From Natrialba aegyptia DSM 13077 (GTDB lineage: Archaea > Halobacteriota > Halobacteria > Halobacteriales > Natrialbaceae), in assembly GCF_000337535.1 (NCBI RefSeq), contig NZ_AOIP01000015.1:151112-215111 (forward strand): a stretch of DNA of 64,000 nucleotides. The letters are read 5' to 3'. The notes under the pieces are model-generated. The model did no database searches and was not told where the DNA came from. It saw only the letters and a list, made by a program, of their open reading frames with translations. Positions 22,665 through 49,504 of this stretch are shown in pieces. Position numbers and translations under genes: made by a program. How positions within the stretch are numbered: position 1 is the first letter of the stretch; each line of letters begins with the position of its first letter.

Positions 22665-23795
22665 CTACGTCGGCGTGATCCACTCCCCTTCGACGTAGCG
22701 CTCGACCGTCAGCGGTTCCGCGTCGGGTACGTCCAGTGCGAGGGCTGTAGTGTCGACCGCCGTCGAATTCGTTTCGTTCCCGTCGCTGTCGGAGTCGTCG
22801 GAGTCACCGGAGTCGACGGCCCGCTCGAGGATCGTCCCGCCGTCGCCGACCGCGACGTCGTACGACGATCCCGTCGCGACGCCCTCCAGTTTGGACTCGA
22901 GTTCGGTTTCGTACTGTCGCCACTGGCCGGCGGATTGGCGTTCGTACAGCGCGCCGCCGTTGCCGGCCGCGAGGCCGTCGGCTCCGTCGCGGTCGATCGC
23001 GCGGACGGCCCGTCGGGCGTCGTCGACGACGTGGGGCGTCCAGCGGAAACCGTCGTAGCGGTAGACGATCCCGGAGCCGGCGGCGACGTTCACGTCTCGC
23101 TCTCCCTGGCTCGCGAGATCGAAGAACGCGCCGCCCGCGAAGTCGATACCGATCTGCTCCCACGTCTCCCCGCCGTCGACCGTCTCCGCGACGAACTGGC
23201 TCGTGCTGCAGACGTGCCCCGCGTCCTGGGAATGACAGTCGATAGCTGGGATCGTCGAACCGCCGCCGGGTTTGATTACCTCCGCGTACTCGATCGCGCC
23301 GCTGTCTTGGCGGATGCCGACGAGCAACTCGCCGGACCCGTTGACGAAGTAGAGGCGCTCGTTCTCGCCGGCCCTTCCCCGTACGGTGCAGTCTTCCCAC
23401 GTGCTCGTCTTCCCGTTCGGCGCGGAGTAATTCGTCAGGGTCTGCGTCTCGACGTCGTACTCGCCGATGACGCCGCTTCCGCCGACGAACCAGACCGCCC
23501 GCCCGTCGTCGGTGGCGTCGACGCCGGTTAGACGACGGCTCCGGGCCTGCGGGCCGTACGCGACGACCGTCTGCCAGCCGTCTTCCCGCCGGGCGAGGAC
23601 GTTACCGTCGGCACCGACCGCGAACGGCCCCGCGGCGGTATCGACGGCGTCGTTGAGCGCCTTTCCGGTCGGCGACTCAGCCTGTTGCCACTCGGTCTCG
23701 TTCGTTTGGGCGGCCGCCGATCCGAGCGCGAGAACGCCGGTTGCTACCGATGCGGTCGCGAACTGAAGGACGTCGCGTCTGGTCTGTTCGGACAT
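22665..23795 (-). CDS. Tat-exported beta-propeller protein, paralogue 1
   Basis: 376-aa protein with a Tat signal (QTRRDVLQFATASVATGVLALGSAAAQ) and no lipobox cysteine, so probably secreted or cell-wall associated. The mature part consists of BNR/YCF48-like blades: AVGADGNVLAR, AVWFVGGSGVIGEYDV, NGSGELLVGI, IKPGGGSTIP, AAGSGIVYRYDG, VGDGGTILER. It is a clear paralogue of 34569-35552 and 47304-48479. After the propeller come an Asp/Ser-rich linker and a C-terminal tail (about residues 335-376, LALDVPDAEPLTVERYVEGE) that the other two lack. It converges on the permease gene. Confidence 0.85.
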   Translation of the reverse strand: MSEQTRRDVLQFATASVATGVLALGSAAAQTNETEWQQAESPTGKALNDAVDTAAGPFAVGADGNVLARREDGWQTVVAYGPQARSRRLTGVDATDDGRAVWFVGGSGVIGEYDVETQTLTNYSAPNGKTSTWEDCTVRGRAGENERLYFVNGSGELLVGIRQDSGAIEYAEVIKPGGGSTIPAIDCHSQDAGHVCSTSQFVAETVDGGETWEQIGIDFAGGAFFDLASQGERDVNVAAGSGIVYRYDGFRWTPHVVDDARRAVRAIDRDGADGLAAGNGGALYERQSAGQWRQYETELESKLEGVATGSSYDVAVGDGGTILERAVDSGDSDDSDSDGNETNSTAVDTTALALDVPDAEPLTVERYVEGEWITPT

Positions 23796-34341: not shown

Positions 34342-34460
34342 TGAGCCACGATTCGGCCCGGTGGGGGTAAAGCGTAACGGGATCGCATTCGCGGGGGAGT
34401 CGTTTGCGGCCGCGGTTGCGACCCGGGTCACGGGTGCGAGCGCCGGTCGGCCGGCGGTTA

Positions 34461-34568
34461 TACTGTCGGACAGAAGTCAATACGAAGTCAGTCGCTCCGC
34501 TGCGGCCGTCCCCACTGGCGACGGCCGCAGCGGAGCGACCGATCTTCACGTAGTTCTGTCCGACAGTA
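34461..34568. mobile_element. 108-bp MITE-like element with 3-bp target duplication
   Basis: Perfect 15-bp terminal inverted repeats TACTGTCGGACAGAA (34461-34475) and TTCTGTCCGACAGTA (34554-34568) are flanked on both sides by TTA (34458-34460 and 34569-34571). Inside is a perfect 20-bp inverted repeat (34491-34510 and 34520-34539) around a 9-nt loop. There is no coding capacity. This is the anatomy of a non-autonomous transposable element. The right TTA is the stop codon (TAA on the minus strand) of the propeller gene. Confidence 0.8.
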
Positions 34569-35552
34569 TTAGTACTGCCGCTCGATCACCATCCCCGACT
34601 CGCCGACGACGAGTTCGGGTGCGCGGGACGTGCCGAGCGCGATCGCGAGCGGATCGTTTTGGGCTGGGAGCGTCGTTTGCGTCGTCCAGCCGTCGAAATC
34701 GCGCTCGAAGAGGTCGCCGGAGGAGGCGATCGCCAGCGCGTCGTAGCGGTTCCGGACCAGGGCCGTGATCGCCGTTTCGGCGAGCGACGCGCGCGACCAG
34801 TCGACGCCGTTGTAGGACCAGACGGTGCCGTCGCCGCCGGCGACGGAGACCGCCCCGGAATCGACCGCGGCGACGGCGTCGAAATCGACGGCTGCCGCAT
34901 CGATGCCGATACGCGTCCAGGTATCGCCGCCGTCCCGCGATTCGAACGCCCCGCCGTCCGTGTCGACGGCGTAGACGTACGACAGCGGCGTGATATCGAC
35001 GTCGGTGACGCTCGAGCCGGTGCCGGGTTCGATCACCTCGGCCCACTCGACCGACGTGCCGTCGCGTTGCCCGTGGAGGAGTTCGCCCGAGCCGTTGAGC
35101 GCCGTAATTCGCTCTTCGCCGGCGAGACCGGCGACGGCGACCGCCGTCCAGGAGGACGTCATCTCCTTCGGTGCCGAGAAGTCCACGGCCTGGTCGGCGA
35201 CAACATCGTAGAGGCCGAGTGCACCGCTATCGCCGGCGGCCCAGACCGCCCGGCCGTTGTTCGTCACCGCGAGCGAACGAAGCGTATCGGCTGTCTCGCC
35301 GGGGCCGTTCGGAAGTGCGACGCTCCACGACTCGTCGTCTCGAGTCAAGACGATCCCGTCCTCGCCGACGACGACAGCGCCGGTCGCCGTCGTTCCGACG
35401 TCGTACAGCGTCGCGTCGGTCGGAACGGCGGCCGGCGTCCACTCGGCGGTCGTCTCGCCGCAGCCGGCCAGCGACGCCGAGACTGAAACCGCAGCCCCGC
35501 CGATCGCGGCGAGGACGGTCCGCCGACGGATTCGATCACGCCCCGTCGCCAT
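34569..35552 (-). CDS. Lipoprotein beta-propeller, paralogue 2
   Basis: 327-aa paralogue of the proteins at 22665-23795 and 47304-48479. The N-terminus DRIRRRTVLAAIGGAAVSVSASLAGC combines a Tat RR motif and a lipobox (LAGC), so it is probably anchored outside the membrane by a lipidated Cys. Blades share AVWAAGDSGALGLYDV, NGSGELLHGQ, VIEPGTGSSVTDV, VAGGDGTVWSYNGVDW. Its stop codon coincides with the target duplication of the MITE-like element. Its first 17 bases overlap the end of the upstream membrane-protein gene, so the two form an operon. Confidence 0.85.
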   Translation of the reverse strand: MATGRDRIRRRTVLAAIGGAAVSVSASLAGCGETTAEWTPAAVPTDATLYDVGTTATGAVVVGEDGIVLTRDDESWSVALPNGPGETADTLRSLAVTNNGRAVWAAGDSGALGLYDVVADQAVDFSAPKEMTSSWTAVAVAGLAGEERITALNGSGELLHGQRDGTSVEWAEVIEPGTGSSVTDVDITPLSYVYAVDTDGGAFESRDGGDTWTRIGIDAAAVDFDAVAAVDSGAVSVAGGDGTVWSYNGVDWSRASLAETAITALVRNRYDALAIASSGDLFERDFDGWTTQTTLPAQNDPLAIALGTSRAPELVVGESGMVIERQY

Positions 35553-37044
35553 GGGTCTCGACCTCCCGTTCCTGCTCTTGAACTCGGGTGCTCGACGGGC
35601 CGTTGTTCAGCCGCTGGTCCGGGGCGGTCGCCGCCGGTTCGCCGTCGGCGGTTTCGATTCCGGCTTCGGATGGACGGCTCGGCGGGGACGACGGCGTGAA
35701 CGCGCCGGGGGCGGACGTACGTTTGAGGACCGCGGAGATGCGAACGACGTACGCGAAGAGGACGCCGAGCGGGCTGAACGCGACCGCGAGCGCGAGGCTC
35801 ACGAGGACGAGCAGCGGGCCCTCGTGGGCGACCGGCGGATAGCCGCTCGCGTAGATCATGATGACCAGGGTCGAGAGCAACAGCGCCGCGGTGCCGCTGT
35901 AGGTGATCCATCGCGACAGCCGCGCGAGGTCGCGCTGGAGGTAGATCGTCGTGAAGTACTGTCGCGTGGCGTCCGCGGCGACGAACAGTTCCCGGAGTTC
36001 GGAGAGCAGTTCCGACGCCCGGTCGGACAGTTCGTCGTCGAACCGTCGCCGAAACCGCCGTGCCTCGGTAGCGGCACCCGCGTAGTCGTGGTCGATCGTC
36101 GGCAAGACGACGTCGAAGACGGAGTCCGTTCCGCCGGTAAGCGTCGACGAGAGGTCGCGCGTGTGGTCGCGGGTTTGCGATGCGAAGCGTCGAATGGACT
36201 CGAAGGCGTCCATCGAACAGCCCGCGGTTTGGTCGTCGGCCGTTGACTCGGATGCGGCTTCCCCGTCGCGTTCGCACTCCGAGACGAGCGCGTCGGCGCG
36301 GCTGCCGAGCGTTCCGGCCAGGCGGGCGAGAAACGGTGCAGGATTGGTCGGGCTCACGCCGTCCCCTTCCGTCTGTTGCTCGATACGCGTGCGAAACTCC
36401 TGGACGCCATCGATGCGATCGGTCAGTCGGTCCGGCGTGCCGAACAGCCGCGAGATGATCAACTGGTTGACCGCGACGACGATCGGGATGAACGAGAACA
36501 GGCCCGCGATCATCGTGCTGAACATCGTCGTCACGAAGCGACTCTCGCGGACCCCGATGACGTCGCTCACGCCGAGCAAAAGTGCGATGAGGAAGATACC
36601 GACGACGAATCCGCCGATGATCACGCGACGATCGCCCTCGAGTAAGAGCCAGCGGTGGCTGTCGCGGCGGGATTTCGTTTCGGTGAGCAGTCGAATGCCG
36701 ATTCGAGCGCCGACCCAGAGCAAGCGTCCGCCCACGAGGAGTCCGGCGACGGTCAGCCGAACGATGTAGACCGCGAGGGAGAGACCGAGCGATGACTCCT
36801 CGTCACCGGAACGATCTGACTCGGAGTGCGACCGCTCGGAGAGGGTTGTCGAGTCGTCAGCGGGAGCGTCAGCGGTTGTGTCGGCGTCATCGCGGACGGT
36901 TTCGCCGGCCGTCTCGGAATCGCCGTGGTCGGGCGCACCGAGTGCAGTCGAGTCCTGTGCCGTGTCGGAGGACGTTTGCGAGGTCGCAGTGTCCGGGTCT
37001 GGGTCGGTCGATGTGGGGTCGGGCGATGAGGAATCGTCAGTCAT
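35536..37044 (-). CDS. Membrane protein with a large cytosolic or external central domain
   Basis: 502-aa protein. An acidic Ser/Thr/Asp tail (1-85) is followed by hydrophobic segments at about 87-115, 145-165 and 173-200, a charged helical region of about 190 residues (RFRRRFDDELSDRASELLSELRE), and two more helices (about 395-445). No known family was recognised. It overlaps the start of propeller paralogue 2 by 17 bases, so the two are cotranslated and may form a membrane complex with the lipoprotein as the outer part. Confidence 0.75.
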   Translation of the reverse strand: MTDDSSSPDPTSTDPDPDTATSQTSSDTAQDSTALGAPDHGDSETAGETVRDDADTTADAPADDSTTLSERSHSESDRSGDEESSLGLSLAVYIVRLTVAGLLVGGRLLWVGARIGIRLLTETKSRRDSHRWLLLEGDRRVIIGGFVVGIFLIALLLGVSDVIGVRESRFVTTMFSTMIAGLFSFIPIVVAVNQLIISRLFGTPDRLTDRIDGVQEFRTRIEQQTEGDGVSPTNPAPFLARLAGTLGSRADALVSECERDGEAASESTADDQTAGCSMDAFESIRRFASQTRDHTRDLSSTLTGGTDSVFDVVLPTIDHDYAGAATEARRFRRRFDDELSDRASELLSELRELFVAADATRQYFTTIYLQRDLARLSRWITYSGTAALLLSTLVIMIYASGYPPVAHEGPLLVLVSLALAVAFSPLGVLFAYVVRISAVLKRTSAPGAFTPSSPPSRPSEAGIETADGEPAATAPDQRLNNGPSSTRVQEQEREVETHGDGA

Positions 37045-37105: not shown

Positions 37106-38125
37106 TCAGAGGAGGGCCGAGACGAGTTCGAGCAGGCGGAGTGCGAGGACGAGTAGGATGATCAGTACGACGACGCGTCGCAGGATGGCGCTTCGCGTCG
37201 TTCTGATGCGGGCGCGGTCCGACGGGTGAAAGCCGACGGTCCAGAGCGTTGCGATCGACCCGACGTTGATCGCGATGAGGTTGACGGCGACGACGACGAA
37301 CGATCCGAGCGTCGCTTCGGGTGCGCCCCAGGCGACGCCGACGCCGATGACGCCGATCGGCGGCATGAGTGCGGCGGCGATCATCACCCCGATCAGGTCC
37401 GTAATGCCCGTGGTTGCCATGCCGAGCCCGCCGGCGACGCCGGAGCAGATGGCGACGGTGACGAGCAGGGATGGCGGTAAGCCATGGCTGCCGAGTCCGA
37501 GGCTCGCCTCGAGATCGACGACGGAAGAGATGATCGTCGACGTGCGTGCGAACGCCGCGAAGGACAGGGCGCTGACGAGGGCGACGACGATGCCGAGCAG
37601 TTGGAGTTTGACGCCGCGGGCGAACAGCGGTCGGTCGTCGAGGACCGTCGCAACGCTTGCGGCCATCGCCGGGCCGAGCAGCGGGGCGATGACCATCGAG
37701 CCAACGAGGACGGGCAGCGAGTTCAGGAGGACGCCGGTGGTTGCGACGACGCTGCTTATCGCCGTCATCGTGGCGAAGATGATGAACGAGGGGAGCTGCG
37801 AGCGGGCTTTCGACCGCAATTCGCTTCTGGAGACGCGCTCGAACGAGAGCCATTCGGGCCGTCGGTTGGACCGATTGCGCGCGGAGTCGCTGCCGGTTTC
37901 GAGGATCGCCATCGGCGCTTCGACGATGACGGTAACGTTCCCGGTGATCGCCTCCAGCTGGTCTTCGACCGGTTCGACCGCGTGTGCGGGGACCGGAACG
38001 GTAAGCGTCCAGTGCTCGCCGTCGGAATGATCGGTGAGGCTGTACGTGAGGTCGTGGGACTCGAGGACGGCCATCACCTCGTCGATACTCGGCTGTGTGT
38101 CTGCGAGTACCGTCACGAGGCGCAT
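37106..38125 (-). CDS. DUF389 (TIGR00341-like) membrane protein
   Basis: 339 aa from the ATG at 38125. An N-terminal alpha/beta domain of about 75 residues (MRLVTVLADTQPSIDEVMAVL) precedes six or seven helices with the family blocks SFIIFATMTAISSVVATTG, VLVGSMVIAPLLGPAMA and AALMPPIGVIGVGVAWG. The family is widespread in haloarchaea and its transport substrate is not established. The longer upstream frame reads Arg-rich shadow sequence and is rejected. It shares orientation with the neighbouring membrane protein at 35536 and lies upstream of it. Confidence 0.88.
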   Translation of the reverse strand: MRLVTVLADTQPSIDEVMAVLESHDLTYSLTDHSDGEHWTLTVPVPAHAVEPVEDQLEAITGNVTVIVEAPMAILETGSDSARNRSNRRPEWLSFERVSRSELRSKARSQLPSFIIFATMTAISSVVATTGVLLNSLPVLVGSMVIAPLLGPAMAASVATVLDDRPLFARGVKLQLLGIVVALVSALSFAAFARTSTIISSVVDLEASLGLGSHGLPPSLLVTVAICSGVAGGLGMATTGITDLIGVMIAAALMPPIGVIGVGVAWGAPEATLGSFVVVAVNLIAINVGSIATLWTVGFHPSDRARIRTTRSAILRRVVVLIILLVLALRLLELVSALL

Positions 38126-38178: not shown

Positions 38179-38745
38179 TCACAGTAGCGTGAGTGCATCG
38201 GCCTCGGACAGTGAATAGGTGGGAAACGTTCGATTGAGAAGCGAACGGACGAGGTGGCGGATCACCGCGAGTTGATCCCTTCCAGTGTCCGTGCACACGG
38301 TTCCACAGCGGCCGATCAATCCGTCCGCTCCGTCGAGGTACGTCAGGCGGCCGCCGCAGTTCTGACATCGCGGCTCGACGTGGTTGGTCATCCACTCGAC
38401 GGCGAACTCGTCACGAGCGAGTCGCTCGCCGAGTGCGTACCAGACGATGACGTCGCGCTCACCTCGGCCCGACGCCGTCCGCTTCAATCGCGTGAGCGTG
38501 ACCGCGGCGCGGGCGTACAGTTCATCGTCCGGGACGGCGTGTCGTTGGTGACAACGCCGGAAGTACGTCAGCAGTGCTCGCTTCGACGACCGTCGCTTTC
38601 CCGTCGTCAGTGGCGTCTCGAGAGCGACGTTCTGCGAACAGCCGTCGGCCTCCGGCGCGCGTTCCGGACGGCCGCGTTCGTCGTAATGGCGCTCTCGCGA
38701 GAGAGACGCACCGCTGGTCGGACAGAATGCGTGTTCACCAATCAT
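38179..38745 (-). CDS. Zinc-ribbon-containing hypothetical protein
   Basis: 188-aa protein with possible metal sites: C8 in HAFCPTSG and a C-terminal CQNCGGRLTYLDGADGLIGRC type ribbon (three to four Cys), followed by a helical tail ending AVIRHLVRSLLNRTFPTY. The middle contains RALLTYFRRCHQRHAVPDDELYARAAVTL. No family is recognised. The gene lies 53 bases upstream of the DUF389 start on the same strand. Confidence 0.6.
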   Translation of the reverse strand: MIGEHAFCPTSGASLSRERHYDERGRPERAPEADGCSQNVALETPLTTGKRRSSKRALLTYFRRCHQRHAVPDDELYARAAVTLTRLKRTASGRGERDVIVWYALGERLARDEFAVEWMTNHVEPRCQNCGGRLTYLDGADGLIGRCGTVCTDTGRDQLAVIRHLVRSLLNRTFPTYSLSEADALTLL

Positions 38746-38958
38746 TTGTTAGTTGTTGGGACGGCCGAACCGGGCACCGGTCCGACCGACTACCTCAGCG
38801 TAGCGGTGCCAACGGGATAAACTGACACAGTATTGAGAGTATCTAAAATAAATAGAGCGACCCATATCCTACTCTAGAAACGTGTTACAGATGTTTTCCA
38901 TATATTTCTAATGTTTGTTGATACCTTATCCGTGCCCGGCTACTACGACGATTGCACC

Positions 38959-39402
38959 ATGTCACGTGGTGATCTTCCAGCCGTCGATTCGACCGATTTG
39001 GCACCGTGGTACTGGTACATACTGATCGGCTACCCCGTATTGAGTCTGCTCGGGATCATCTCGCTCGCCCGCCTCACCGGCGGCGGCTCGGTACTGGCCT
39101 CGAGTGTCGGCAGTATCGCACTTCTGATCGTCATCGTCGCCGCAAGTGCCATTACGCTTCCGGCGATCTGGCGGGACGCCGAGTTCGTTGCGACCGAAAC
39201 CGATGCGTGGGACCCCGACCGACAAATCTACGTCGGTGCAGCCGTCGCCGTTCCGCTGCTTCTCGGCGTTCTCTCCGGACTGGCGGCCGGGTTCGGAATC
39301 GCGATCGCGATCACCGTCCTCGGCTTCCTGCTGTCGACGGTCACTGTCTGTTCGGCGTACCTGTACAACCGCCACCGCAGCGTCGGATTACTCGCTCGCT
39401 GA
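38959..39402 (+). CDS. Four-helix membrane protein
   Basis: 147 aa from the ATG at 38959 (MSRGDLPAVDSTDLAPWYWY). Helices at about 19-38, 45-68, 87-107 and 110-135. The alternative ATG at 38911 falls within AT-rich promoter-like DNA. A TATA-like ACCTTATCC about 30 nt before 38959 supports the shorter form. The function is unknown; the size and topology resemble many small halobacterial membrane proteins. Confidence 0.65.
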   Translation: MSRGDLPAVDSTDLAPWYWYILIGYPVLSLLGIISLARLTGGGSVLASSVGSIALLIVIVAASAITLPAIWRDAEFVATETDAWDPDRQIYVGAAVAVPLLLGVLSGLAAGFGIAIAITVLGFLLSTVTVCSAYLYNRHRSVGLLAR

Positions 39403-39891: not shown

Positions 39892-41460
39892 ATGCTCTCA
39901 GAGATACACCTGCTCACCGACCAGGCCAGTCTCTGGCCCGTGTCCGGCCACCAGTTCGTCTCGCTGCTCCGATTACTGCTCGTCCAGAGCCACCTCGAAT
40001 CCGGGTCGGCCACCATCAACACTAGCACCAACATCACCACGGCCACCACGGCCACCACCACCATCGCTATCGCCCTCTCGGCTGAACTCGGCTTCGTTTT
40101 CGGACCGGTCACCGGCGGCGGACTCGACCTCGCGGCCAGGCTCGCCGGGCTGCTCGGTGCCCTCCTGATCCAGCTCGTGACGGCCCTGGTCATCGCGCTC
40201 GAGATGGCCTGGGATACCTGGTGGGCGCTCGTCCTCGGCTTTACGATCACCGGTGCCATCCAGGAGTTCGTCGACGAGGATCGGCTCACCGACTACCTTG
40301 GCGACGACGGCTGGCGGGAGATCGGCTACGGGACCGTCTTCGGCACGGCCTCCTCGAGTTGCTCGTTCTCCGCGGTCGCGATGACCCGATCGCTGTTCAC
40401 CAAGGGTGCCTCGGCCGCGTCCACCCTCGGAGCGTTCCAGTTCGCGAGTACGGATCTCGTCCTCGAACTCGCACTCGTCGTCCTGACGCTGCTCGGCTGG
40501 CAGTTCGCCGCCGCGGAGATCACCGGCGGGCTAATCGCCGTCGTCGTCCTCGGCATCGTCTACCGGCGGTTCGTCCCCCCATCGTGGATCGAGCGGGCAC
40601 GCGCCCACGCTCGCGCGCTCGACGAAACCGAATGCGCGACCTGCGGCATGGCCGCCCCGCCGACCGACGAGGAGACGATCACGCGAACGTTCGCCGGCGA
40701 GCGCCGCTACTTCTGCTGTGGCGGCTGTCTCAACGCGTACGACCCGGCCGACGACCGCGAGGCCGTTACCGCCGGCCCCGAACTCCTCTCGGGAGACCGC
40801 TGGCAAAGCGCGATCGCGAACACGATTCGCGAATGGGACATGCTCTGGCGGGACATCCTCTTCGGATTCCTCCTCGCCGGACTCCTCGCCGCATTCGTCC
40901 CCGACGCCTGGTGGACCGCCCTCTTCGGCGTCGGTCCCGAGGGAAGCCTCACGCGCCTCCTCTCCAACGTCGTGCTCGGAGCCATCGTCGGCGTGCTGAC
41001 GTTTCTCTGCTCCGTCGGCAACATTCCCTTCGCCGTCGTCCTCTGGCAAAACGGCGTCTCGTTCGGCGGCGTCCTCGCGTTCATCTTCGCCGACCTGCTG
41101 ATCCTCCCGCTGGTCCGAACGTACCACCGCTACTACGGCCTCCGCATGGCCGGCGTCATGTTCGCCGCGTTCTTCGCCGCCGCCGTCATCGCCGGCTTCC
41201 TCGTCGAACTCGTCTTTTCCGGACTCGGACTCGTTCCGTCACCCGGCACGTCCGGCGGGACGGTCCCCGGAGCGTACACGTCCCTGTTCAACGTCGTTAC
41301 GCTCCCCCTCTTCGCCGTGCAGGTGTACGTCGCCCTCGAACCGGACCAACGCGTCCGCCTCGGCAACCGAATCGCACCGTACGTCGCGGGCGTTCTCTAT
41401 CACGCCTACGACCTCGTGAGACGAGTCGCGTACGCGCTCGAATCGCGCGGCCTGAAGTAA
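39892..41460 (+). CDS. Permease (YraQ/DUF318, SO_0444-like) with cysteine-rich insert
   Basis: 522-aa membrane protein built from two permease halves. The first half contains GTASSSCSFSAVAMTRSLF and the second LCSVGNIPFAVVLWQNG, the paired motifs of the metalloid/metal efflux permeases related to ArsP. Between them is a soluble insert with CATCGM (Cys248, Cys251) and FCCGGC (Cys275, 276, 279), a TRASH/YHS-like metal-binding pattern. It probably exports or senses a soft metal (Cu, Zn, Hg) or metalloid. An MFS-like gene starts 13 bases downstream, implying an operon. The start matches the first hydrophobic family region. Confidence 0.82.
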   Translation: MLSEIHLLTDQASLWPVSGHQFVSLLRLLLVQSHLESGSATINTSTNITTATTATTTIAIALSAELGFVFGPVTGGGLDLAARLAGLLGALLIQLVTALVIALEMAWDTWWALVLGFTITGAIQEFVDEDRLTDYLGDDGWREIGYGTVFGTASSSCSFSAVAMTRSLFTKGASAASTLGAFQFASTDLVLELALVVLTLLGWQFAAAEITGGLIAVVVLGIVYRRFVPPSWIERARAHARALDETECATCGMAAPPTDEETITRTFAGERRYFCCGGCLNAYDPADDREAVTAGPELLSGDRWQSAIANTIREWDMLWRDILFGFLLAGLLAAFVPDAWWTALFGVGPEGSLTRLLSNVVLGAIVGVLTFLCSVGNIPFAVVLWQNGVSFGGVLAFIFADLLILPLVRTYHRYYGLRMAGVMFAAFFAAAVIAGFLVELVFSGLGLVPSPGTSGGTVPGAYTSLFNVVTLPLFAVQVYVALEPDQRVRLGNRIAPYVAGVLYHAYDLVRRVAYALESRGLK

Positions 41461-41473
41461 GTCGCTTCCACCC

Positions 41474-42952
41474 ATGACGACATCCCACCCACAGTCCCAA
41501 TCCCAGGGCCAGTCCCAGTCTCGGCCCCAGCCACGGCCACGACCACCCGGCGGACGGTTCGATCCCGTCCGGATCGTCCTGCTCGTCACCCTCGTCACGA
41601 GCCACGGGTTGATCCGCGTCGCCGAACGCTACTTCCCCGAGTTCCTGTCGGCACTCGGCTACGGGCCGATCGTCGCCGGACTGCTCGTCAGCACCGGCCT
41701 CGGTGTGGCCGTCGTCGTGACGGCATCCGCGACCGCCGGGCTGAACTCGAGTGACGAGGCAGAAACTGGTGATAGAAACGCCGAAACTGGCAGCCTCCAG
41801 GCGCAGGTGATCGCAGTTGCCTCGGTGTTGTTGGCGACCCTCGGACTGTTCGTCTGGACGGGCGCACCGACGCTCGATACGCTCCTCGGCACGCCGCTTT
41901 CGGCGCTCGGATGGCTCGCAGTCGGGGTCGTGCTCCTCCAGGCCTGGCACAGTTTCGGCCCGGTGCGGACCCTCTGGCCGATCGATACCAGGATCGTCGG
42001 TCGAAAAACGCGATCGACCCGAACCGAAGCCGACGAGTTCACTCCGTCGGGAGCCGGTCGAGCCCACGACGCCCGTGCGGACGCCGTCGTCGGAGCGCTG
42101 GGAATCGGTGCCGGCGCGCTGGTCGTGACCGCAGCGATCGCGATCGTCGGCGGCGTCAAAACCGGGTTTTCGATCGTCGCGGCGACGGGTGCGGCGGTCA
42201 CGCTCGTCGCGGCGATTACGCGGGGGGTCGTCGGCGAGACCGACCGGCTTCCGCTCGTCGGTCGCACCGAAGCGCCGAGTGCGGCGAGGAGCCGGGTTCC
42301 CGATTCGGTCGCGTCGGTTCGCCGGGCGATCGCCGCCCTCCCCGACCGTCGGCGGTGGACGATCACCGGCGACGCGCTCGTCAGGCTGGCGCTCGTGGGG
42401 AGCACGCCGTACCTGGTGTTGCTGTTCGTCGAGGAACAGCCGCTTTCGCTCTCGGTCGGCGGGCGGTCGCTGATGCCGGCTGCGCTGTTCGGCGCGTTCG
42501 TCCTCGCGGAGGCGGGCGGGGCGCTTCTCGGCGCGCTCGCCGCTCCGCGACTCGTCTCGGCGGTCGATCGGCGGTGGCTCCTGGCCCTCGGTCTCGCGGG
42601 CGTCTCGCTTGTTCCGATGGCCCTCGTCGCGACGTCGTCCGTCGCCATCGTCGCGCTGCTGTTCGCCGTGCTCGGCTGTCGGACCGCGATCGAACCGCTC
42701 AGACCGACCGTCGGACCGACCACCCGGCCGAGCCACGACGTGAGCCCCGACGCGGACGCAACGGCGCTCGGTCTCCCGCCACCCGAGCCCCTCCAGACGG
42801 CGGTTCGGGTCGCACTCGTCCCGGCCCCGCTCGTCGGCGGCCTCCTGTACGCGATCCACCCCGTTGCGGCGTTTACCGTCGCGACGACCGTCTCGCTGCT
42901 CGGCGTTCGCGAACTGCTCAGATCGTTCGATTCCGAACGAGCGGGCGACTGA
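41474..42952 (+). CDS. MFS-like multi-helix transporter
   Basis: 492-aa membrane protein with about twelve helices. A Gln/Pro-rich start (residues 5-30) precedes ILLVTLVTSHGLIRVAERYFPEFLSALGYGP, an MFS-like first helix pair. A polar linker lies near residues 170-205, and the second half contains LAGVSLVPMALVATSS. The motifs are weak, so the assignment to MFS is by topology. It starts 13 bases after the metal permease stop and lies 52 bases before the oxidase-like gene. Confidence 0.7.
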   Translation: MTTSHPQSQSQGQSQSRPQPRPRPPGGRFDPVRIVLLVTLVTSHGLIRVAERYFPEFLSALGYGPIVAGLLVSTGLGVAVVVTASATAGLNSSDEAETGDRNAETGSLQAQVIAVASVLLATLGLFVWTGAPTLDTLLGTPLSALGWLAVGVVLLQAWHSFGPVRTLWPIDTRIVGRKTRSTRTEADEFTPSGAGRAHDARADAVVGALGIGAGALVVTAAIAIVGGVKTGFSIVAATGAAVTLVAAITRGVVGETDRLPLVGRTEAPSAARSRVPDSVASVRRAIAALPDRRRWTITGDALVRLALVGSTPYLVLLFVEEQPLSLSVGGRSLMPAALFGAFVLAEAGGALLGALAAPRLVSAVDRRWLLALGLAGVSLVPMALVATSSVAIVALLFAVLGCRTAIEPLRPTVGPTTRPSHDVSPDADATALGLPPPEPLQTAVRVALVPAPLVGGLLYAIHPVAAFTVATTVSLLGVRELLRSFDSERAGD

Positions 42953-43004: not shown

Positions 43005-44594
43005 GTGACCAGCATGCCACTACCCAACTCATCCGACGACAGTGACGATGACGCTGGCGACGCCGACGGCACTGAACTCGACGCGGCGAGCGAGCCCGTC
43101 GAAACGGGCCGGCGATTGATCGCCGTCGACCACGTCCGACTCGGGCGGTGGTTCCTCGTCTTCGCGCTGGTGATGGGGCTCTGGGGCGGCCTCGACGCCG
43201 TGCTCCTTCGGACGACGCTCGTCACGCCGACGCTGGATCACTGGTCGGCCGACGTCTACAGTTCGCTCTTCACGACTCACGGGCTGACGATGTTGTTCCT
43301 GTTCGCGGTCCCCGCAATATGGGGCTTTGCGTACGCGACGATTCCGTCGCTGATCCGGGCCGAGCGAACCGCGTTTCCCGCCGTCGCTGCGGCGGCGTTC
43401 TGGCTGCAGATCCCGGCTGCGATACTGGTTCGGGCCGGAACGATCGGCAGTGCCCTCGACGTGGCGGGACTCGACCCCGTCGCGATCGGCTGGACGCTGT
43501 ATCCCCCGATGAGCGTTGCATCGTCGAATCCCGCCGTCGACGCGCTGGTCGCCGGCCTCCTGCTCGTCGCGATCAGCACGTCGCTGACCGCGGCGAACCT
43601 CGTCGCCACGATCTGTCGCCGGCGGACGATTCCGTGGAGCGACGTCGACACGTTCACCTGGACGGTGGTGACGAGCGCAGCGATGGCGGTCGTCGCCTTC
43701 CCGGTTCTGGCCGGTTCGCTCGCGCTCTTGCTCCTCGAACGGGCGGCTGGGGTCGGGCTCCTCGTCGGTCGGAGCGGCCCGATGGTCTGGCTGAACCTGT
43801 TCTGGTTCTTCGCCCATCCACTGGTGTACATCCTGGTATTGCCGCCGATGGGTATCGCCAGTCACGTGCTGCCGCGGTTTGCCGGGCGGCGACTGTTCGG
43901 CCGCCGATCGGTCGTCTACTCGACGTTTGCGATCGGCATCCTCTCGTTTACCGTCTGGGGACACCACCTGTTCATGGCCGGGATGGGCGTCGGCGTCCGC
44001 GCCGTGTTCATGTTCGTGACGCTGGCGGTCGCCGTCCCGAGTTCAGCGAAGCTCTGTACGTGGCTCGGCACGCTGTGGGGTGGCGCGATCCAGCACACAG
44101 CGCCGATGACTGCAACCATCGCGGCGATCGCCTTCTTCATCGTCGGCGGCGTGACCGGCGTCTTCCTCGCGGTGGCTCCGATCAACGTCCTCTACAACGG
44201 GACGTACTACGTCGTCGCCCACTTCCACATGATGCTCGTCGGATTCGTCGCGTTCACGCTCGTCGCCGGAGCGTACTACTGGTTTCCGCTGCTTACCGGC
44301 CGGTGGTACGATCCGACGCTCGCTCACCTGCACGTCTGGCTCACCATCGTCGGAATCATCGTGACCTTCGGCGCGCTCTTCGTCGTCGGCTTCGCGGAGT
44401 TGCCGCGACGAATCGCGACCTACCCGCCCGCGTTCGCGCCGATTCACCAACTCGCCACCGTGGGCGCCTACGTCATCGCCGTGGGACAGCTCGTCTTCCT
44501 GCTCAACCTCGGTCGGTCGCTCTGGGTCGGCGAGCGCGCCGGCGACGATCCGTGGGGCCTCGCCGACGAGCCGTCACACGCACGAGAATGGTGA
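43005..44594 (+). CDS. Orphan heme-copper oxidase subunit I-like protein
   Basis: 529-aa, about twelve-helix protein; start GTG 43005 or ATG 43014. All heme and CuB ligands are visible: His92 (TTHGLTML), His271 with Tyr275 (FFAHPLVYIL), His320/His321 (WGHHLF), His406 and His408 (VAHFHMM). The K-channel Lys349 (VPSSAK) is kept. The Glu of the usual HPEVY is Leu273, so the D-pathway proton relay is altered. No subunit II with a CuA site, nor subunit III, is in this window. It may be an alternative terminal oxidase or NO-related branch. An acidic N-terminal extension of about 40 residues precedes the first helix. Confidence 0.88.
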   Translation: MTSMPLPNSSDDSDDDAGDADGTELDAASEPVETGRRLIAVDHVRLGRWFLVFALVMGLWGGLDAVLLRTTLVTPTLDHWSADVYSSLFTTHGLTMLFLFAVPAIWGFAYATIPSLIRAERTAFPAVAAAAFWLQIPAAILVRAGTIGSALDVAGLDPVAIGWTLYPPMSVASSNPAVDALVAGLLLVAISTSLTAANLVATICRRRTIPWSDVDTFTWTVVTSAAMAVVAFPVLAGSLALLLLERAAGVGLLVGRSGPMVWLNLFWFFAHPLVYILVLPPMGIASHVLPRFAGRRLFGRRSVVYSTFAIGILSFTVWGHHLFMAGMGVGVRAVFMFVTLAVAVPSSAKLCTWLGTLWGGAIQHTAPMTATIAAIAFFIVGGVTGVFLAVAPINVLYNGTYYVVAHFHMMLVGFVAFTLVAGAYYWFPLLTGRWYDPTLAHLHVWLTIVGIIVTFGALFVVGFAELPRRIATYPPAFAPIHQLATVGAYVIAVGQLVFLLNLGRSLWVGERAGDDPWGLADEPSHAREW

Positions 44595-44961: not shown

Positions 44962-45285
44962 ATGGCATCCACCACAAGCACCGACGTTGCACTGATGCTC
45001 CTGCAGTTGATCGCACTAACGATTCCACCGGCCGTCGTCCTGATCGACCAGCTCCGCCGAACGCAGAACCTCGAATGGACCGTGCGAAAACTGAGCTTCG
45101 GTCTCGTGTTCTCGAGTGTCACCCTCCTGCTCGGCGGCGCAGTCGCCGTCCTGCTGTACTTCCTGACCGTATCGCTACCCATCACTCTCATCGCAGGGCT
45201 GCTCCTCGTTTTGCTCGGCCTCCTCCCGCTCGGGGCGTTCGTCCTCGTCCTGTACCGAGAACACCGGAAAGAACACGGCCCCTAA
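44962..45285 (+). CDS. Small three-helix membrane protein
   Basis: 107 aa from the ATG at 44962 (MASTTSTDVALMLLQLIALT). Three hydrophobic helices (about 8-27, 43-67, 70-93) and a basic C-terminus (YREHRKEHGP). It is found between the oxidase-like gene and the regulator. It has no copper or heme motif, so a role as a small oxidase subunit is only a guess from position. Confidence 0.65.
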   Translation: MASTTSTDVALMLLQLIALTIPPAVVLIDQLRRTQNLEWTVRKLSFGLVFSSVTLLLGGAVAVLLYFLTVSLPITLIAGLLLVLLGLLPLGAFVLVLYREHRKEHGP

Positions 45286-45372: not shown

Positions 45373-45741
45373 ATGTGTAGGAACATCCCTACCAACCACG
45401 ACGACAACGACGAGCACGAATCGAGTATCGACGGGTCGACACCCCCTCGCCCACTGACGAACCTGACCGGGTTCAAACGCGACCAGCTATTCGTCATCCG
45501 ACTGCTGGCCGAACGCAACCCCCACGGGCTCGTGATCAAAGACAAACTCGACTGCTACTACGACGAGGACATCAACCAGGGCCGACTCTACCAGAACCTC
45601 AGTGAACTCGTCGACGAGGGGTACGTCGAAAAGCACCCACTCGACGGACGAACCAACGCCTACCGGCCGAGCACGCACGCCAACAGGCGTCTCGAAGAGC
45701 ACCACGAGTGGGAACGACACTGTCTCTTCTGTGACCCCTGA
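45373..45741 (+). CDS. PadR-like winged-helix transcriptional regulator
   Basis: 122 aa. After an unstructured N-terminus (about 30 residues, Asn/Asp/His-rich) comes LTNLTGFKRDQLFVIRLLAE, then the recognition region GRLYQNLSELVDEGYVEK and the wing KHPLDGRTNAYRPST, typical of haloarchaeal PadR-like proteins. The tail HHEWERHCLFCDP has a C-x-x-C pair that could sense metal or redox. The ATG at 45373 is preferred over the GTG at 45319, which lies inside the tRNA-like fold. The candidate targets are the neighbouring operons. Confidence 0.82.
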   Translation: MCRNIPTNHDDNDEHESSIDGSTPPRPLTNLTGFKRDQLFVIRLLAERNPHGLVIKDKLDCYYDEDINQGRLYQNLSELVDEGYVEKHPLDGRTNAYRPSTHANRRLEEHHEWERHCLFCDP

Positions 45742-45933: not shown

Positions 45934-47307
45934 ATGACTACTCCGCACGATGCTTCAACCGACACGACCAGCCGAACCGCTCCCGCACTCGATGCTCCGT
46001 GGAGCCACCTCCGAACCGCCGCCCACCGTCTCTCGGTCCCAGATGATATCGAACAGCGGCTCCTGTACGCGCGCCAGCGCCAGCAAATCGCCATTCCGTT
46101 CGAACGCGACGATGGGACGATCGACGTTCGAGCAGGGTACCGCGTTCGCCACGACGACGTTCGCGGCCCCTACATCGGCCCGCACCGCTACGTCCCCGGG
46201 CTGACAATCGGCGACTGTGCCGGACTCGGGGTCGCAACTGCCGTAACCGCCGCACTCGCCGATGTGCCGTTCGGCGGCGCAGCGGGCGGCATCGACTGCG
46301 ATCCGGAAACACTCTCGTGGGACGAACGCGCCAGACTCACGCGCTCCTACGCGCGACGAATCACCGACCTCGGCCCGAACAGCGACGTTCTCGTTCCCGA
46401 TCTGGGAACCGACGAACGCACCATGGCTCGCGCCGCCGATGCCGTCGCCGAACGCGTCGACGGCCCCCACACCGCGACGGCCGCCGGAAAACCGGCCGTT
46501 CTCGGCGGCTCGCGAGAGTTCACCTGTGCCGGCGGCCACAGCGTCGCCCACGTCGTCCGTGATATTCTCGAAACGGATCTCGACCGCTCGCTGGACGAGG
46601 GAACCGTCGCCGTGTACGGCACCAGCACCGTGGGTGCGACGACGGCGCGCTTGCTCGACCGCTGGGGCAGCACTATCGTCGCGCTGTGTAGCGATCACGT
46701 CGGGCTTGCTGCCGACGCCGAGGGTGATGGCGACGGCGATAGTGATAGTGACGGGGAGAGCGAGACGCTCGAACAGGGAACTGGCGATGAGGACGGTGAC
46801 GACGACGCTACCGACGACGGCATCGATACGACCGTCGCACCCAGCTACCTCGACGGACCGGGTGCGATCGACGAGTTCAGCGGCGGCACGATGACCGGCA
46901 CCGAGAACGTCCTCGAAGCGGATGTCGATGCGCTGGTTCTCGCCGGATCGGGGACGGCGGTGACGGCCAGAAACGCGGAGACGATCCGGGCGGATCTCGT
47001 CGTCGAAGGCGCGTACGGCGCGGTGACCGCCGGCGGGCAGCGCGTTCTCGAGGAACGGGATGTCGCCGTCGTGCCGGCCGTGCTGTCGCTCGCCGGCAAA
47101 CTATCGGCCGCGAGCCTCGAATGGCGTCGTCACGTCGGCCGCAGCGAGATGAGCGACACGCGCATGGCGAACGAACTCTCGTATGCGGTTATCGACGCCG
47201 TTTCCGACGTTCGGGCCCACCGCGTGCGCCGCGACGTGGGCTGGCGCGACGGCGCGTACGAACTCGGGCTCTCGCGGCTCGTCTCGGCTCACGAGGTGGT
47301 TCGATGA
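45934..47307 (+). CDS. Glu/Leu/Phe/Val dehydrogenase-like pseudoenzyme
   Basis: 457-aa member of the glutamate dehydrogenase fold: VRHDDVRGPYIGPHRYVPGL, ALADVPFGGAAGGIDCDPETL, VPDLGTDERTMA, AGKPAVLGGS and a Rossmann entry VAVYGTSTVGATTA. The active-site lysines are lost. The K of GPYKGG is Ile81, the K of the MTWKxAV helix is Thr105 and the catalytic K of GGAKGG is Ala117. The Asp of PDxGT is kept. The nucleotide domain carries an acidic insert of about 60 residues (about 262-322). Its TGA overlaps the next gene's ATG. Glutamate dehydrogenase activity is unlikely; a regulatory, binding or scaffolding role is inferred. The ATG at 45934 is used because the first 25 residues of the longer frame are not family-like. 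Confidence 0.85.
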   Translation: MTTPHDASTDTTSRTAPALDAPWSHLRTAAHRLSVPDDIEQRLLYARQRQQIAIPFERDDGTIDVRAGYRVRHDDVRGPYIGPHRYVPGLTIGDCAGLGVATAVTAALADVPFGGAAGGIDCDPETLSWDERARLTRSYARRITDLGPNSDVLVPDLGTDERTMARAADAVAERVDGPHTATAAGKPAVLGGSREFTCAGGHSVAHVVRDILETDLDRSLDEGTVAVYGTSTVGATTARLLDRWGSTIVALCSDHVGLAADAEGDGDGDSDSDGESETLEQGTGDEDGDDDATDDGIDTTVAPSYLDGPGAIDEFSGGTMTGTENVLEADVDALVLAGSGTAVTARNAETIRADLVVEGAYGAVTAGGQRVLEERDVAVVPAVLSLAGKLSAASLEWRRHVGRSEMSDTRMANELSYAVIDAVSDVRAHRVRRDVGWRDGAYELGLSRLVSAHEVVR

Positions 47308-48479
47308 TCGATCGTCTCGACGACTCGCTCGGCGACGCGATCGAGTGGCTGACCGAGATCGGTCCCGAGATCGACCCGTCAGCCAACTCCGAATCCGATT
47401 CTGACTTCGACTCCAACCCTGACTCTGAATCCGGATCCGACTCCGAGTCGGAAGCCGCCGATTCCGCATCGAACGCCGCATCCCGGGACGGGGCTGTACC
47501 GCGGTCGGACGGCGGTCGCGAGACCGATCCGTCGGGTGCCCAAGCGGCCGCCGACTGGGAAGAAGCCGACTCGCCGACCTCGAGAACGCTGCACGGCGTC
47601 GTCCACGGCGCGGACGGTGCCTACGCCTGTGGCGAGGGCGGTATCCTGTTGCACCGGCGCGACGACGGGTGGCAGACGCTGATCGAACGCGGTCCGGGCG
47701 TCGCGGACAACACGTTGCGGACGATCGACGCAACGGCCGACGGCTGTCGGCTCTGGTTTGCCGGCGACAGCGGTGCACTCGGGTACTACGACGTCGCCGA
47801 CGGCTACTTGAGCGACTACTCGGCACCGGGGGAAAAGACGAGTACCTGGGAGGGAATCGCCGTGTCCGGGCCAACTGGCGAGGAGCGCATCCGCATCGCG
47901 AACGGCTCCGGCGAAGTTCTCGACTGCACCGTCGAGGACGGCTGTCCGGCCTGGGGAGACGTCGTCGAACCCGGCGGCGGGTCGACGATACCCGGCCTGA
48001 CCGCCGGCCCGGACGGATTCTACGCCATCGACACCAGCGGCGGCGCGTACTACGCGGACGCGAACGGCGAGTGGGAACGAATCGGCGTTCGCAACGCCGA
48101 AGTCGACTTCTACGACATCTGGGCCGGCGATGAAACCGTCTTCGTCGCCGGTGCCGACGGCGTCGCGTATCGGTACGACCCGCGCTGCGAGAACTGGACC
48201 CCGATCAACGTCGGACAGGGTGCGCTCCAGTCCATCCAGGTGGACGAAGGCAGCAACACTGCCGTCGCCGTCGCAACCGGCGGACGCGTCTACGAGCGCA
48301 TCGAAAGCATCCGCTGGGAGGAACGGGACACGCCGACGGAACAATCCCTTCTCGATCTCGCTCTCGCCCGCCAGCGGTCGGACGACGAGGGACTGGCGAC
48401 CGTTCCCGTCGACATCGCCGTCGGTGCTGGCGGCACCGTTCTCGAGCGCCACCGAGACCGTTCGGACACCACGGACTAA
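47304..48479 (+). CDS. Cytoplasmic beta-propeller protein, paralogue 3
   Basis: 391-aa paralogue of 22665-23795 and 34569-35552 with no signal peptide. Instead it opens with MIDRLDDSLGDAIEWLTEIG and about 50 Ser/Asp/Glu residues. Blades share LWFAGDSGALGYYDV, TSTWEGIAV, NGSGEVLD, VEPGGGSTIPGL, VAGADGVAYRYDP and VGAGGTVLER. The ATG lies within the ATGA overlap with the dehydrogenase-like gene, so the two proteins are made together and may bind one another. The predicted cytosolic site contrasts with the exported paralogues. Confidence 0.85.
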   Translation: MIDRLDDSLGDAIEWLTEIGPEIDPSANSESDSDFDSNPDSESGSDSESEAADSASNAASRDGAVPRSDGGRETDPSGAQAAADWEEADSPTSRTLHGVVHGADGAYACGEGGILLHRRDDGWQTLIERGPGVADNTLRTIDATADGCRLWFAGDSGALGYYDVADGYLSDYSAPGEKTSTWEGIAVSGPTGEERIRIANGSGEVLDCTVEDGCPAWGDVVEPGGGSTIPGLTAGPDGFYAIDTSGGAYYADANGEWERIGVRNAEVDFYDIWAGDETVFVAGADGVAYRYDPRCENWTPINVGQGALQSIQVDEGSNTAVAVATGGRVYERIESIRWEERDTPTEQSLLDLALARQRSDDEGLATVPVDIAVGAGGTVLERHRDRSDTTD

Positions 48480-48685: not shown

Positions 48686-49504
48686 ATGCTCCCAGACAAT
48701 CCACTCTCGTTCACCGCTCGTATCGATTCCGACTCGCTCCCCATCGCCGAACTCGCCACCCTCTCGCTCTCGGCACTCCTTTGGCTCGTCCTCTTCGAAG
48801 GCTGGCTTCCCGACCTCGGCCCCGCTCCCGCTGAACTCGAGGCACCGATGGCCGCCCCCGGCGTCCCCGAAGCGATGGCGACGGCAAACGGACTCTCGGG
48901 TACCGTCGCGTACCTGCTCATGTGGGGCACGATGATGCTCGCGATGATGCTTCCGTCGCTGATCCCGGTCGTTCGACAGCACCTCGATGACGTGTGCCAG
49001 AATCCGTCCGTCGCCGTTCCGTCGATCGCCGGATTTCTCGGCGGCTACGGTCTCGTCTGGACGGCGATCGGCGCAGTGCCCCTCGCGGTCGAACTGCTCG
49101 TCTCGATTCACGAGTTCTCGACCGCGTCCGCGTTCGGGCTCGGTGCGGGGGTGGTCCCAATCGCCGGACTGCTCGCGTTCGCCGGCGGCTACCAGCTGAC
49201 GCCGTTCAAACGCCGGCTGCTCTCGCGGTGTGCGTCCTGCCAATCGATTCCGCACTGTCCCAACGTGAATCGGATGGTTCGCAGGGGGATCTCCTACGCG
49301 ACGAACTGCGTCGCGTGCACCTGGCCGCTGTTCGCGCTGATGGTTGCGCTCGGGTCGATGAATTTCCTCGTGATGGTCGGCCTGACGCTCGTGGTTTCGA
49401 TCGAGCGCCTGACGCCGGACGGCGAACGCGTCGCGTTCGCTATGGGCGTCCTGTTGATCGGTGCCGCCGTGTTCTCGCTGCTGTTCGGCGTTCCGGCGGT
49501 CTGA
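48686..49504 (+). CDS. DUF2182 predicted metal-binding membrane protein
   Basis: 272 aa with about seven helices. Family blocks: YLLMWGTMMLAMMLPSL (Met-rich helix), FAGGYQLTPFKRRLLSRC and NCVACTWPLFALMVALGSMNF. The paired Cys (CASC, then NCVAC) and Met residues suggest soft-metal handling. An internal CASCQSIPHCPNVNRM loop adds three Cys. It has its own intergenic region of about 200 bases after the propeller gene but continues the same orientation. Members often sit near metal or cytochrome genes; the function is unproven. Confidence 0.87.
   Translation: MLPDNPLSFTARIDSDSLPIAELATLSLSALLWLVLFEGWLPDLGPAPAELEAPMAAPGVPEAMATANGLSGTVAYLLMWGTMMLAMMLPSLIPVVRQHLDDVCQNPSVAVPSIAGFLGGYGLVWTAIGAVPLAVELLVSIHEFSTASAFGLGAGVVPIAGLLAFAGGYQLTPFKRRLLSRCASCQSIPHCPNVNRMVRRGISYATNCVACTWPLFALMVALGSMNFLVMVGLTLVVSIERLTPDGERVAFAMGVLLIGAAVFSLLFGVPAV

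Follow-up and report, generated by a model that had tools for sequence, protein, structure and literature searches.

Catalytically inactive members of the glutamate dehydrogenase (GDH) family have a described precedent in Thermus thermophilus, in which GdhA is the inactive regulatory subunit of the GdhAB heterohexamer (PDB 3AOE; PMC9570180). GDHs can also act on a transcription factor, as in the trigger-enzyme system of GDH and GltC in Bacillus subtilis (PMC6794564), and among propeller proteins Ycf48 assists photosystem II assembly and is positioned at a metal site (PMC10403576). Here, we analysed a window of 64,000 nucleotides from the haloarchaeon Natrialba aegyptia DSM 13077 (contig NZ_AOIP01000015.1, positions 151,112 to 215,111), in which the gene of a putative GDH-fold pseudoenzyme (GDHL) is followed by that of a beta-propeller (PROP). 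A literature search found no paper on the GDHL-PROP pair or on the gene block carrying it; given the inactive GdhA of T. thermophilus, the earlier note on this DNA nevertheless went too far in stating that no described system resembles it. That note had also missed the 13-gene block, the occurrence of PROP in blocks without a GDH, and two lysine-bearing relatives of GDHL in related clusters.

GDHL (457 aa; 45934-47307, plus strand) runs from an ATG at 45934 to a TGA at 47305-47307 and is a member of the Glu/Leu/Phe/Val dehydrogenase fold family, scoring 106 bits against ELFV_dehydrog_N (PF02812, cut-off 25.3) and 92.9 bits against ELFV_dehydrog (PF00208, cut-off 23.4). Its AlphaFold2 model, built like that of PROP on a shallow alignment and of low confidence (mean pLDDT 65), resembles GDHs, which supplied all top Foldseek matches (E 1e-23). 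The best NCBIfam match was haloarchaeal GdhB (NF041398), with about 40-45% identity across the first 260 residues; the score of 331.5 bits lies below the equivalog cut-off of 620, and assignment to GdhB fails on this ground. Alignment to solved GDHs placed Ile81, Thr105 and Ala117 exactly at the three active-site lysine positions, as had been read from the sequence earlier (GPMKGG to GPYIGP, MTWK to TAVT and GGAKGG to GGAAGG), and the window copy also lacks the catalytic Ser (GGVTVSY to GKLSAAS) and Asn (EGAN to EGAY). The PDxGT (here PDLGT), AGKP and GGS blocks that the earlier note described as kept are indeed present in this protein, but the PDxGT Asp and the GGS Ser vary among orthologues. 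An acidic insert, previously put at 60 residues, extends about 31 residues beyond the orthologues and is lineage-specific, occurring in only three Natrialba genomes (the window, L084 and L085); being confined to Natrialba, it was rejected as a component of the module.

Across 125 Natrialbaceae genomes, a family search gave 23 with a GDHL match at E <= 1e-62, to which two divergent copies (L088 and L103) were added through their propeller and synteny, so that GDHL is present in 25 genomes of nine genera. Its presence is patchy, extending to three of the seven Natrialba genomes, and in a contig scan the only true orthologues were those of N. taiwanensis and N. asiatica, the nearest named relatives of the window. 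An 18-orthologue profile run against 391 genomes of the class gave 536-778 bits for GDHL and <=473 bits for other GDHs, a clear separation. Every one of the 25 orthologues is without the three lysines and the EGAN Asn, which excludes the loss in a single genome that was previously named as a sign of decay; the Ser after GGVTV is missing in 24, L103 being the exception, and the PDxGT Asp is absent from about half. By the same counts, GDHL fails as an active GdhA or GdhB. Another 46 GDH-invariant positions remain conserved, and six formerly invariant positions carry the same replacement in 24 of the 25 copies (G83P, W101A, C106A, K117A, S393A and F395L), while position 81 is I, L, V, M or A and position 105 is S, T, A, G, Q or R. 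GDHL is under purifying selection, with pairwise dN/dS of 0.08-0.21, like the neighbouring genes, in keeping with the earlier picture of a conserved fold stripped of its catalytic residues. The conservation and dN/dS point to a functional gene, and the loss of catalytic residues makes a role as glutamate dehydrogenase very unlikely. Two ordinary GDHs are encoded on another contig (C13) of the N. aegyptia genome, and the GDHL copy would therefore have been freed from that role.

PROP (391 aa; 47304-48479, plus strand) begins with an ATG at 47304 and ends with a stop codon at 48477-48479. As previously described, the stop of GDHL overlaps this start exactly (ATGA) and no signal is evident; the N-terminus is acidic and predicted to be disordered, and the protein is predicted to be cytoplasmic. 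A Pfam score of 30.4 bits against Beta-prop_HVO_0234 (PF23366, cut-off 27), together with an AlphaFold2 model that is a seven-bladed propeller (mean pLDDT 76) and matches other seven-bladed propellers, qualifies PROP as HVO_0234-like by profile and modelled fold. A further propeller of this kind, the third in the window (22665-23795), has a signal-like N-terminus and is about 42% identical to PROP.

The earlier note had asked whether a propeller gene always follows, and had taken its absence from relatives as a sign of decay; PROP lies directly after GDHL in 25/25 genomes and is translationally coupled to it in 24, with a -4 overlap, against a +6 gap in L103. This conservation in 25 genomes makes the pairing more than chance. 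When six further same-strand junctions from the block's right half were compared, only that between the MFS and COX1 genes proved similar (-4 in 16/20), the rest being gapped; therefore, the overlap alone is no proof of a complex. Distance matrices correlated at r = 0.96 for GDHL and COX1 and 0.87 for GDHL and PROP, values that shared descent alone could give. Outside Natrialbaceae, moreover, most clusters have PROP but no GDHL; PROP is thus not specific to the pseudoenzyme and has a role that needs no GDHL.

The pair lies within a block of some 13 genes whose synteny is conserved in Natrialbaceae (20/20 loci compared), with variable flanks (gatB, acs, smc) and a few members missing in single loci. 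On the minus strand, the block comprises prop2, a YCF48-like second propeller with a twin-arginine/lipobox-like leader as read from the sequence (34569-35552), tm35.5, a membrane protein of no assigned family (35536-37044), a DUF389/TIGR00341 membrane protein (37106-38125) and a Zn-finger-like protein with conserved Cys/His (38182-38745). The plus strand carries, in addition to GDHL and PROP, the membrane protein tm38.9 (38911-39402), an ArsP_1 permease into which a TRASH-like metal-binding domain with conserved Cys248, 251, 275, 276 and 279 is inserted (39892-41460), an MFS-like transporter (41474-42952), the haem-copper oxidase subunit I COX1 (43005-44594), the small membrane protein tm44.9, part of the core of the wider cluster (44962-45285), a PadR-family regulator (45373-45741) and, after PROP, a PpoB2/DUF2182 copper-chaperone-like membrane protein with conserved Met and Cys (48686-49504). 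The copper assignment of PpoB2 comes from Marinomonas (PMC2855505).

In Natrinema zhouii (L110), the block is carried on a 465-kb plasmid. A 135-base PLSDB resistance call on this plasmid ('MCR-7.1', L110:1757-1891) is probably spurious, and annotation of its tm35.5 (L110:8269-9744) as a cbb3-type oxidase subunit I is probably also mistaken; Pfam and NCBIfam scans gave no oxidase match for the window tm35.5. Between gatB and prop2, a long inverted repeat (34460-34570; ends ATACTGTCGGAC / GTCCGACAGTAT), read by eye, is possibly a small mobile element. PADLOC anti-phage defence models matched none of ten cluster proteins, and the block was rejected as a defence system on this basis. A promoter and terminator scan, which does not cover archaeal promoters, found nothing.

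In every COX1 copy, from Natrialbaceae and other families alike, the haem and copper histidines are intact. The equivalents of E286 and D132 are lost in most Natrialbaceae copies (L084-L103), although L103 and L101 retain the Glu; outside Natrialbaceae (L188-L201), the E286 equivalent is kept and D132 mostly kept. Since L103 and L101 still have the Glu, this loss seems to have come later than that of the GDH lysines. A2- and B-type oxidases function without E286, and we therefore do not claim the E286/D132 loss as proof of an inactive oxidase. Nor did we retain the absent K-channel Lys as evidence of inactivity, since it is missing from the other oxidase subunits of the genome too. The window's cluster has no COX2 beside prop2; however, a CuA-type COX2 adjoins prop2 in four Natrialbaceae loci (L086:14618-15502, L102:2595-3470, L087:1504-2352 and L088:3249-3905), and the idea of COX1 as an orphan without COX2 was rejected.

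With the Zn-finger protein, the best marker of the wider cluster, as the query, related blocks were found in several other haloarchaeal families (L168-L201). Gene order and extra genes vary, and the contents include the Zn-finger protein, DUF389, tm35.5, one propeller, ArsP, MFS, COX1, PadR, PROP and tm44.9, mostly without a GDH. Some of these blocks have a Na+/H+-exchanger-type protein and a TrkA_C protein after COX1, and in L189 PROP is followed by nitroreductase-like and formate/nitrite transporter genes. Two blocks, L188 and L196, do encode a GDH, in which 9/9 tested catalytic and cofactor residues are kept. It lies near PROP, non-adjacently, in L188, where it adjoins a HalOD1-domain protein (L188:8699-9049), and overlaps PROP by 4 bases in L196, with a GTG start (GTGA). 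In a tree, a branch with 100/100 support set these two GDHs and the 25 pseudoenzymes apart from 35 other GDHs, and the grouping kept 94/100 support when the longest branches were removed. Because L188 and L196 retain the tested residues and group with the pseudoenzyme, an active GDH was probably in the block first. L103 is the deepest pseudoenzyme, its lysines gone and its GxGxxG and Ser retained, and the simplest reading is that the lysines were lost before the Ser and the dinucleotide motif, with coupling to PROP predating the loss. Two lysine-bearing copies and the positions of long branches in the tree underlie this reading of the origin. A fuller scenario, which we put forward only tentatively, would have an active GDH recruited into the block, coupled to PROP and converted stepwise (substrate Lys, later Ser and dinucleotide motif) until it served as a structural or sensor component of a new regulatory complex linked to the oxidase, with the COX1 proton-entry residues lost in the same lineage.

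Our preferred interpretation, to which we assign a probability of roughly 0.45, is that GDHL and PROP may form a non-catalytic complex serving as a scaffold or a regulatory or sensor module for the oxidase/metal block. GDHL, probably the descendant of an active GDH already resident there, would no longer be an oxidoreductase and would persist as a non-catalytic oligomer that binds PROP, the two being co-translated stoichiometrically; the fold class modelled for PROP commonly mediates binding, which we count towards this interpretation. The cytoplasmic pair would then serve membrane products, namely COX1, the metal-handling permease and the chaperone, possibly by way of the adjacent PadR regulator.

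By analogy with the catalytically inactive regulatory GDH subunits already described (PMC9570180), GDHL could instead co-assemble with an active GDH encoded elsewhere, the propeller being an accessory. The dimerisation domain is intact in Pfam, the same genome encodes active GDHs, and Foldseek identity was highest to chains C and D of 3AOE (29-30%, others about 25%). We nonetheless consider this unlikely, as no active gdh lies beside GDHL, whose immediate neighbours are PadR and PROP, and the conserved neighbourhood is one of oxidase/metal genes rather than nitrogen metabolism. In the profile search, moreover, Thermus 3aoe_E (293 bits) fell below the Thermotoga GDH (325 bits) and others, and there is therefore no special kinship to the Thermus lineage; classing GDHL as a Thermus-type GdhA was rejected.

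Less probable still is a metabolite sensor that would control PadR by direct contact, the propeller acting as an adaptor. In 25/25 genomes the gene immediately upstream of GDHL encodes PadR, and a large part of the pocket frame (GGAAGG, GKP, RGP..G) is conserved despite the lost catalytic groups, but PadR is also found in clusters without GDHL, and PadR proteins commonly act alone. The analogy would be with GDHs known to bind a transcription factor (PMC6794564). The conserved frame and the several newly fixed residues could also be taken for a pocket reshaped around another substrate, that is, for an enzyme of changed chemistry. This we regard as improbable, given that the old catalytic positions are variable or occupied by small or hydrophobic residues, that GxGxxG is broken in several copies, and that the 25 aligned copies showed no newly conserved acid, base or nucleophile there. 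That GDHL is a decaying pseudogene retained by chance, as the loss of catalytic residues and patchy presence might suggest, is contradicted by the selection data, the frames intact in 25 genomes, the conserved start-stop overlap and the fixed replacements, and is highly improbable.

Enzymes that have turned into non-catalytic partners are usually known only as end points. Haloarchaea offer a natural series here, from a working enzyme to a probable structural or regulatory protein. Lysine-bearing forms (L188 and L196) and 24 fully converted copies are available, with L103 as an intermediate; the sequence of losses and the acquisition of the partner are therefore directly testable. The findings also draw attention to a block, present in multiple haloarchaeal families, that joins haem-copper oxidase subunit I, metal-handling genes and propellers, and to GDH-like proteins that automatic annotation still calls dehydrogenases.

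Among described systems, the nearest canonical family to GDHL is haloarchaeal GdhB (NF041398), from which GDHL differs in being without the catalytic lysines. Like Thermus GdhA, its closest precedent, GDHL appears to be a GDH fold without catalysis that is kept beside active GDHs in the same cell; unlike it, GDHL has no active gdh neighbour and is coupled to a propeller in an oxidase/metal block. The RocG/GudB-GltC system of B. subtilis, in which a GDH is regulatory through binding, offers a possible model for GDHL and PadR, but RocG is an active enzyme and the system has no propeller. In strain 168, inactive GudB is the product of a laboratory-strain allele that carries a short duplication, whereas GDHL is a conserved family. 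PROP, finally, is alike in fold to Ycf48 and HVO_0234-like propellers, and is set apart by its predicted cytoplasmic location and acidic, disordered N-terminus.
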